Shown in pieces: positions 6,805 through 7,866 of a stretch of 40,748 nt of DNA. The notes under the pieces are model-generated. The model worked only from the letters and a program-made list of their open reading frames with translations, had not been told where the DNA came from and ran no database searches. The stretch's first letter is position 1. The number at the start of each line of letters is the position of its first letter. Where the stretch lies: IMG/VR virus record IMGVR_UViG_3300043411_000219, positions 1 to 40,748 of that record; one strand, written 5' to 3'. The DNA comes from a virus. A program made the position numbers and the translations under genes.

Positions 6805-6870
6805 TCAATTTAGATGCGAATCAACTGAGGGCGTTCGGGCCGCGCAGGGCAAGATACGGGCCACGTTCAT
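6805..6870 (-). CDS. Possible 21-residue coupling ORF
   Basis: This frame fits the gap between the methylase and the DUF3102 gene exactly. Its ATG overlaps the methylase stop (ATGA) and its TGA lies directly before the next ATG (TGAATG). The peptide would be MNVARILPCAARTPSVDSHL plus one Asn. No homology is known to me. Translational coupling is the likeliest purpose. Confidence 0.35.
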   Translation of the reverse strand: MNVARILPCAARTPSVDSHLN

Positions 6871-7634
6871 ACAGCCGCATCCCTCATTTCCTCGGCTCGC
6901 ATGATTGCGCGGCCGATGATTTCCGGGATCTGCGGGACGACGGCATTTCCGAGGGCTCTAAGGCGGTCCACCCTATTGGCATTCCCATCAGCCATTCTCG
7001 GAATGTCGTCGACCGCACGAGGTCCTGGCGGCCAGTATCCACAATTTGATCGCAAAGGTTCGCGATATGAAGTCGTCCAGGAGTCCCGCGTCGTAAGCGG
7101 TTGCCACGCCCAGATTGGCCCTTGTAATCGCGCGTGGTCGGGGTATGCCAATAACCAGAGGCGTTCTCTGTGCTGGGACGCCCCAAGCGCGTCAGCTCCC
7201 AACACACACCATTCCGCGTCGTACCGCATCTCGGTAAGGTCGCCAAGTACGCCGAGCAATCCTCGAACAGCGAGAGCTGCGACGTTCTCCACGACGATGT
7301 ATCGCGGTCGTACGATCCCAATAATCCGCGCGTACTCGCGCCAGAGCCCAGAACGTTCTCCATCCAATCCGGCACGCTTACCGGCGTGGCTAATGTCCTG
7401 ACAGGGGAATCCGCCGCAGATGACATCTATAGGCTCCAAGCTGGCGAGCGATTCAGCGCCCAAGGCACATACGTCGTCGAAAATTGGGACATCGGGCCAG
7501 TGCTTTCTAAGCACGGCTCTGCAATAGGGCTCGATTTCGCAGAAGGCGACGGTTTGCATTCCGGCTCGCTCAAGTCCGAGGGAGAAGCCGCCGATGCCTG
7601 AGAATAGGTCGAGGACTCGCATGTCATTGCTCAC
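6867..7634 (-). CDS. dcm: C5-cytosine DNA methyltransferase
   Basis: A 255-residue C5-cytosine methyltransferase with the expected motifs in order: motif I DLFSGIGGFSLGLERAG (9-25), motif IV GGFPCQDIS with catalytic Cys78, motif VI VVENVAAL, motif VIII QHRERLW (154-160), and motifs IX/X RLRALGNAVVPQIPE (224 onward). The interval for target recognition between VIII and IX is only about 60 residues, short for the family. It would methylate phage DNA against host restriction. The GTG at 7634 overlaps the preceding gene; the ATG at 7622 is an alternative that loses four residues. A second gene is nested in a different frame over its C-terminal two thirds. Confidence 0.92.
   Translation of the reverse strand: MSNDMRVLDLFSGIGGFSLGLERAGMQTVAFCEIEPYCRAVLRKHWPDVPIFDDVCALGAESLASLEPIDVICGGFPCQDISHAGKRAGLDGERSGLWREYARIIGIVRPRYIVVENVAALAVRGLLGVLGDLTEMRYDAEWCVLGADALGASQHRERLWLLAYPDHARLQGPIWAWQPLTTRDSWTTSYREPLRSNCGYWPPGPRAVDDIPRMADGNANRVDRLRALGNAVVPQIPEIIGRAIMRAEEMRDAAV
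6884..7426 (-). CDS. Nested out-of-frame gene inside the methyltransferase
   Basis: A 180-residue frame lies wholly inside dcm. It starts at ATG 7426 with GGAG seven bases upstream, directly after an in-frame TAG. The product looks like a real protein: DTSSWRTSQLSLFED, then TLPRCGTTRNGVCWELTR, then SGYWHTPTTRDYKG, then FREWLMGMPIGWTALEPSEM. From memory, these W-T-S / L-P-R-x-G / W-P-T-P / M-G-x-P-x-G-W-T motifs recur in a family of phage proteins of unknown role found with cytosine methylases. The C-terminus is Ser/Arg-rich because it is read over dcm motifs IX-X. The function is unknown; it may assist, block or direct the methylase. Confidence 0.7.
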   Translation of the reverse strand: MSSAADSPVRTLATPVSVPDWMENVLGSGASTRGLLGSYDRDTSSWRTSQLSLFEDCSAYLATLPRCGTTRNGVCWELTRLGRPSTENASGYWHTPTTRDYKGQSGRGNRLRRGTPGRLHIANLCDQIVDTGRQDLVRSTTFREWLMGMPIGWTALEPSEMPSSRRSRKSSAAQSCEPRK

Positions 7635-7839
7635 AATCCCTCATTTCCTCCAGCCGCCGCCGAGCCGCGCTATTGCGCTTGGCCTGCTGGTCGTAGCTCT
7701 CTCGGTATTCCTTCGGCGCGGGAATGATCTGGCACTTGCGGCAACTGACGTATCCCACGCAGGATTCGGTGAGATTGCGCAGACCGGTTAGGCCAGAGCC
7801 GCAGGGGCAGGGCGCGTTTGTGGCGCGGGGGTTGGCCAT
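7624..7839 (-). CDS. Small zinc-ribbon-like protein
   Basis: A 71-residue protein with CPCGSG near the N-terminus and CVGYVSCRKCQII further on. The cysteines C-x-C...C-x4-C-x2-C suggest a small zinc-binding ribbon. The C-terminal 35 residues are charged and helical (QQAKRNSAARRRLEEMRD). The start at 7839 is set by AGGAG nine bases upstream; a TTG at 7857 would extend it. It overlaps the methylase gene by 11 bases. Its role is unknown; nucleic-acid binding is a guess. Confidence 0.6.
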   Translation of the reverse strand: MANPRATNAPCPCGSGLTGLRNLTESCVGYVSCRKCQIIPAPKEYRESYDQQAKRNSAARRRLEEMRDCEQ

Positions 7840-7866
7840 TTTTACCGACTCCTGCAAGGCTTACCA

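Follow-up and report, generated by a model that had tools for sequence, protein, structure and literature searches.

Can one stretch of DNA encode, in two frames of the same strand, two proteins that are both genuine and, if so, what would the second of them contribute to the first? The question is raised by a locus in the virus record IMGVR_UViG_3300043411_000219, analysed here over its full 40,748 bases (positions 1 to 40,748, hereafter the window). A dcm ORF on the minus strand (6867..7634, 255 aa, GTG start) contains a second ORF (6884..7426, 180 aa, ATG start) in the +1 frame relative to dcm; read 5' to 3', the nested frame runs from 7426 to 6884, wholly within the 7634 to 6867 span of the dcm ORF. 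The initial annotation had taken both for real genes and had pointed to a GGAG seven bases 5' of the nested ATG and to an in-frame TAG directly before it; as read from the sequence, the Shine-Dalgarno-like GGAG is indeed found on the minus strand at 7437-7434, and the nested-frame TAG stop at 7429-7427, abutting the ATG on its 5' side. The 3' end of a 77-codon ORF on the same strand (7624-7857) overlaps the dcm start, which suggests translational coupling; the match of this small ORF to a SEC-C motif lies below threshold (E 6e-4). A scan of neighbouring genes (helicase, primase-like, NinB-like, DUF3102 and small ORFs) revealed no recognisable restriction endonuclease, and the methylase thus appears to be an orphan.

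An open and conserved-looking nested frame might be an artefact of dcm conservation combined with GC-rich codons. Some nested motif columns are indeed forced by the dcm motifs (W and G columns, z~0), and canonical Streptococcus phage dcms show short +1 ORFs over motifs IV-VIII. The null model used here shuffles synonymous codons within each dcm gene and was applied to 122 loci that contain a dcm; a search with the dcm protein alone had supplied 80 of the fetched loci, which are therefore not selected for the presence of a nested ORF. Among genes of sufficient length for the test, 522 stops fall in the +1 frame where the shuffles predict 948, while the +2 frame under the same shuffles holds 1844 against 1642 expected. 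The longest +1 ORF exceeds the shuffles with p=0.010 for the window gene alone and with p~0 in nearly all relatives, genes of 42% GC included. Control dcms of the host/restriction-system type, most of them with motif IX in their own frame and supplemented by a few partial or phage-type genes, contain 449 +1 stops against 452 expected; the sole intact phage-type gene among these controls (L319) has a +1 ORF that spans its full length. Synonymous shuffles, +2 frame, AT-rich genes and bacterial controls all reject the artefact, as do the changes within the target-recognition domain (TRD), which are mostly synonymous in the nested frame; such an origin of the nested frame is hardly credible.

Selection on the second frame can moreover be placed along the gene. 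In a set of 91 phage dcms free of redundancy, conservation of the +1 translation goes far beyond the demands of the dcm protein and of codon usage; this excess is limited to approximately dcm codons 67-227, which correspond to the nested ORF, is gone on either side, and peaks (z 30-39) at an EWLMGxPxGWT signature. The nested ORF is a real gene. The claim of two real overlapping genes is thus borne out by the excess constraint in these 91 genes and by the deficit of +1 stops, and the per-frame comparison of related phages by which that claim was to be checked reveals a strong excess on the second frame.

The dcm-frame protein is readily assigned: it matches phrog_363 (E 6.5e-79) and PF00145 (E 5e-41), the latter only over profile positions 1-163 of 324. 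Its translation carries motif I (DLFSGIGG, 7587..7610), motif IV with the catalytic Cys in its PCQ (GGFPCQDIS, 7389..7415), motif VI (ENV), motif VIII (QHRERLWLLAYP, 7140..7175) and motif X (LRALGNAVVPQ, 6930..6962), all on the minus strand. It had been credited with every catalytic motif; this needs correcting for motif IX, which was found in the dcm frame neither by inspection of the translation nor with a canonical motif-IX matrix, which gave no signal there. The dcm chain thus shows no conserved TRD and motif IX, as the Pfam match stops at position 163 of 324 and the frame beyond is unconstrained. On the same strand, the nested frame holds a target-recognition region (TPTTRDYKG...GRQDLV, 7022..7144), supported by identity to the nearest relatives in each frame, followed by a motif-IX-like signature (RSTTFREWLMGMPIGWTA, 6962..7021) that reads EWLMGMPIGWT in the window and bears the top excess constraint of the gene (z up to 39). 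Over the nested TRD, the dcm frame is a passenger linker (6999..7139, minus strand) that is open and whose protein is not conserved. Further upstream, over dcm motifs V-VII, lies a doubly constrained stretch (nested SSWRTSQ...LPRCGTTRNG, 7209..7319, minus strand), identified from the per-codon excess of +1 identity (z up to 30).

Constraint is handed over from one frame to the other along the gene. Related genes were aligned as nucleotides and substitutions were counted by codon position, with region borders set by motif VIII and the EWLMG motif and with each sequence used once per divergence bin; the three bins hold 19, 28 and 44 pairs, whose phylogenetic independence is incomplete. Among the 19 pairs of the closest bin, substitutions in motifs I-V concentrate at dcm third positions (0.119, vs 0.041 and 0.008 at the other two), and those in the interval between motifs VIII and IX at nested third positions (0.119, vs 0.020 and 0.012). 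Across the TRD of the closest pairs, the ratio of synonymous to non-synonymous changes is 141/38 in the nested frame and 26/153 in the dcm frame. Judged by these substitutions, the dcm frame rules motifs I-VIII, the nested frame takes over immediately 3' of motif VIII and rules the TRD and the motif-IX stretch, and constraint returns to the dcm frame at motif X. The bins of 28 and 44 pairs agree with this hand-over, and over the 91 pairs the TRD pattern is nested-like in 77 and dcm-like in 10. The window itself behaves in the same way: in comparison with its seven nearest relatives, identity over its TRD and motif IX is 79-89% in the nested frame and 61-66% in that of dcm; over motifs VI-VIII it is the dcm frame that is favoured. 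The proposed constraint of one frame by the other is borne out; the dcm-frame "TRD" itself evolves as an unconstrained linker.

Both frames are thus under selection, the place where each is selected can be located, and both are kept open. In M.HhaI, most of the motifs lie in the large domain, and the variable region and motif IX in the small one (PMC3404938). Since the small domain of solved C5 enzymes consists of the variable region and motif IX, the dcm frame would correspond to the large domain and the nested frame to the small one; and because nested-frame selection falls on the TRD and motif IX and catalytic selection falls elsewhere, the nested chain would be required for both of these elements. 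The pair very probably encodes, from shared DNA, a single orphan phage C5-cytosine methyltransferase made of two polypeptides. The dcm frame, translated end to end, would yield an alpha polypeptide that forms the large domain, carries motifs I-VIII and X for catalysis, and has a linker under little constraint in the usual place of the small domain; the nested ORF, initiating independently at its own internal ATG and Shine-Dalgarno sequence, would yield a beta polypeptide forming the small domain, with the target-recognition region and motif IX. We infer that these two separately translated chains would associate into an active enzyme, capable of sequence-specific methylation of the phage DNA, and that this methylation presumably shields the DNA from host restriction.

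An identical codon-position hand-over is predicted if programmed frameshifting instead produces a single fused chain, the ribosome moving to +1 after motif VIII for the TRD and motif IX and possibly back again before motif X. A conserved proline codon with C in third place (CCC) does lie at the hand-over (codon 165), but the nested TP motif, present again within the TRD, accounts for it. The dcm frame over the nested TRD evolves as an unconstrained linker, yet stays open: of 292 loci, 287 have no dcm-frame stop through the TRD and motif IX, where 45 would be expected from the nested protein, and the stops total 23 against 720 expected (the 292 loci are phylogenetically not fully independent). 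Reading of the catalytic chain thus runs on as far as motif X; a frameshift product would have no need of such an open frame. Neither would it require the nested frame 5' of motif VIII to be constrained, nor its starts to be conserved; the absence of nested-frame stops upstream of motif VIII, which is partly so by construction, is not counted as evidence here. In the relatives with an internal start, the combined score of start and Shine-Dalgarno exceeds that of synonymous shuffles in 58 of 63. The nested ORF begins inside dcm in the window's group; in a second group, labelled "MSWLF", the nested ATG follows the dcm start at a distance of 4 nt, as NTGAATG in 149 of 171 cases, and almost the entire dcm gene is therefore read in two frames. 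Finally, the join from motif IX to motif X in a fused chain, measured from the sequences, would be about 7 residues shorter than the canonical spacing. Frameshifting is thus very unlikely, and two polypeptides translated from separate starts account better for the locus.

Assignment of motif IX to the beta polypeptide rests on form, position and arrangement in relatives. With its sequence RLNPxWVEWLMGFPxGW, the nested signature is similar to canonical motif IX, RRLTPRECARLMGFPDTF, and an hhalign comparison to canonical motif IX falls exactly on it, with a weak score (P 0.0076, probability 5%); the canonical motif-IX matrix likewise finds its best match on the signature in 281 of 324 relatives. 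The signature fits motif IX in form and in position, the sequence match by itself being short and weak. Pfam detects no C5-methyltransferase domain in any nested protein searched, and no IX-X in the small subunits of the split relatives described below. Two nested proteins modelled alone with AlphaFold gave low confidence (pLDDT 65 and 57), and a Foldseek search with a nested-protein model returned no match; both outcomes are to be expected of a domain folding together with its partner, and are at the same time uninformative. The nested TRD is variable in length (32-200 codons in the 324 relatives) and contains between 0 and 5 modules of a "PTP" type, with one module in 136 relatives, two in 105 and three in 48; these modules recall the tandem TRDs of multispecific phage methylases.

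Relatives of the nested protein, which the initial annotation had suggested searching for, are plentiful: tblastn with this protein recovers 55 annotated phage records at less than 60% identity. With a family profile, at least 297 loci come up in viral contigs, and 193 in contigs of bacterial and archaeal genomes belonging to many phyla. The family ranges over phages and prophages of many phyla and includes one archaeal contig. Its motifs had been likened to those of phage proteins encoded next to methylases; they are conserved phage motifs, but the association is one of overlap and not of adjacency, since all 159 loci kept after a search via the nested protein have an overlapping dcm in the identical +1 phase and no standalone nested gene occurs among them. 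This constant co-occurrence, together with the fact that overprinted viral genes are often accessory, would also suit a regulator, an inhibitor or an accessory protein overprinted on a methylase that is sufficient by itself, in line with the earlier suggestion that the product modulates the methylase encoding it. Nested-frame selection nevertheless coincides exactly with the interval of the TRD and motif IX, and dcm alone, being unconstrained over this interval, would lack a conserved small domain.

The split relatives bear on the same point. In Mycobacterium phage Rifter (L415), the first methylase gene stops after motif VIII and a second gene, overlapping it in the +1 frame, encodes a TRD, the IX-like signature and then motif X; Streptomyces phage Vash (L007) and two further loci (L147 and L153) are arranged in the same manner. 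One chain thus holds the signature 5' of motif X, which supports its reading as motif IX and is hard to reconcile with an accessory protein. A regulatory or accessory role is very unlikely indeed, and the nested product is probably a specificity-domain subunit of the methylase instead of its modulator. The four split forms are possible intermediates between the one-frame and the nested forms. In a tree of the catalytic part that includes just five canonical genes for comparison, a supported branch keeps all the nested-type genes together on its one side. Taken as a family, these genes probably constitute a large group of small orphan phage methylases in which catalysis and target choice are encoded in two frames, the nested gene carrying all of the specificity, often with 2-4 "PTP" modules.

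Existing annotation reflects the arrangement imperfectly. The nested family gives nothing usable against Pfam, NCBIfam or PDB sequences, while PHROG 1008 is matched by all 57 nested family members tested (best E 7e-37; window protein, E 6.5e-15). By these profile matches, PHROG 1008 is the nested family; it is labelled merely "DNA methyltransferase", a label silent on the +1 frame of dcm and on the missing catalytic motifs. The profile combines nested TRD/IX proteins with a C-terminal segment (positions 293-323) that matches the dcm-frame motif X of one relative (G004), and the label therefore mixes two architectures. Annotation pipelines choose either frame of the pair: in Pseudomonas phage VB_PaD_phPA-G the nested frame alone is annotated, as "hypothetical protein", and in Paenibacillus phage Jacopo both frames are annotated. 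In Streptococcus phage P0091 (L416), gp40 (1301-1720) is annotated as a nested "DNA methyltransferase" within a canonical dcm that has motif IX in frame; it stops short of the TRD, has the look of a spurious call and probably lies outside the family. Five other loci (L199, L255, L273, L277 and L282) carry frameshifts after motif VIII that swap the frames and fuse the catalytic part to the nested TRD and motif IX; these are either natural or sequencing errors, and several of them contain, close to the swap, a G-rich stretch that codes for GGGG and may be a slippage site. In two more (L016 and L017), a stop occurs at nested codon 106 and similarity to the window protein persists past it (44%, residues 1-169); their nested gene is either decayed or misread.

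In EcoHK31I, the smaller polypeptide is reportedly encoded within the gene of the larger one, in an alternative frame, both being required for activity. The small gene of the window likewise lies inside the large gene, in the +1 frame. The C5 methyltransferases M.EcoHK31I and M.AquI are each naturally composed of two polypeptides (PMC3404938). In M.EcoHK31I (YGGCCR), the large polypeptide contains motifs I-VIII and X and motif IX is found in the smaller one; the TRD is predicted in the large subunit, leaving IX alone in the small one (PMC3404938). The large polypeptide of the window likewise has motifs I-VIII and X and lacks IX, a likeness in the published motif layout. The two systems differ in that M.EcoHK31I is part of a restriction-modification system, whereas the window gene is an apparent phage orphan, and in that selection places the TRD of the window in the nested frame. 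The small polypeptide of M.AquI (CYCGRG) carries TRD sequence together with motif IX (PMC3404938). The Rifter, Vash, L147 and L153 forms are similarly arranged, with a large polypeptide ending after motif VIII and a small one containing IX and X; by comparison, M.AquI has motif X in its small subunit and a split variable region, while the window has motif X in the dcm frame, with the small gene entirely nested. ShiLan-type hidden HNH insertions likewise conceal an ORF within a phage methylase gene, in a frame other than that of the methylase, but they are mobile insertions carrying a homing endonuclease, whereas the ORF of the window lies over motifs of the methylase itself and encodes a part of the enzyme; an inserted endonuclease of this kind was rejected here, as the window nested protein has no Pfam match and the family no HNH match. 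The kind of arrangement is already known through EcoHK31I; what sets the present case apart is that selection locates the TRD within the nested gene. Its spread across phages appears undescribed in the open-licence literature searched, which yielded no account of such a phage family.

If this reading is true, the pair would rank among the most widespread long overlapping gene pairs of double-stranded DNA phages, and a function would be assigned to a large and mislabelled family. For such "Dcm" proteins, the TRD given in annotations would then belong to the wrong frame, and databases would gain the true location of the TRD in these phage methylases. An annotated "dcm" expressed alone may be inactive; the many natural split methylases of the family may in turn provide tools for targeted methylation. 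More generally, a frame hand-over inside one enzyme raises the testable question of how two proteins sharing one stretch of DNA may diversify specificity without breaking catalysis.
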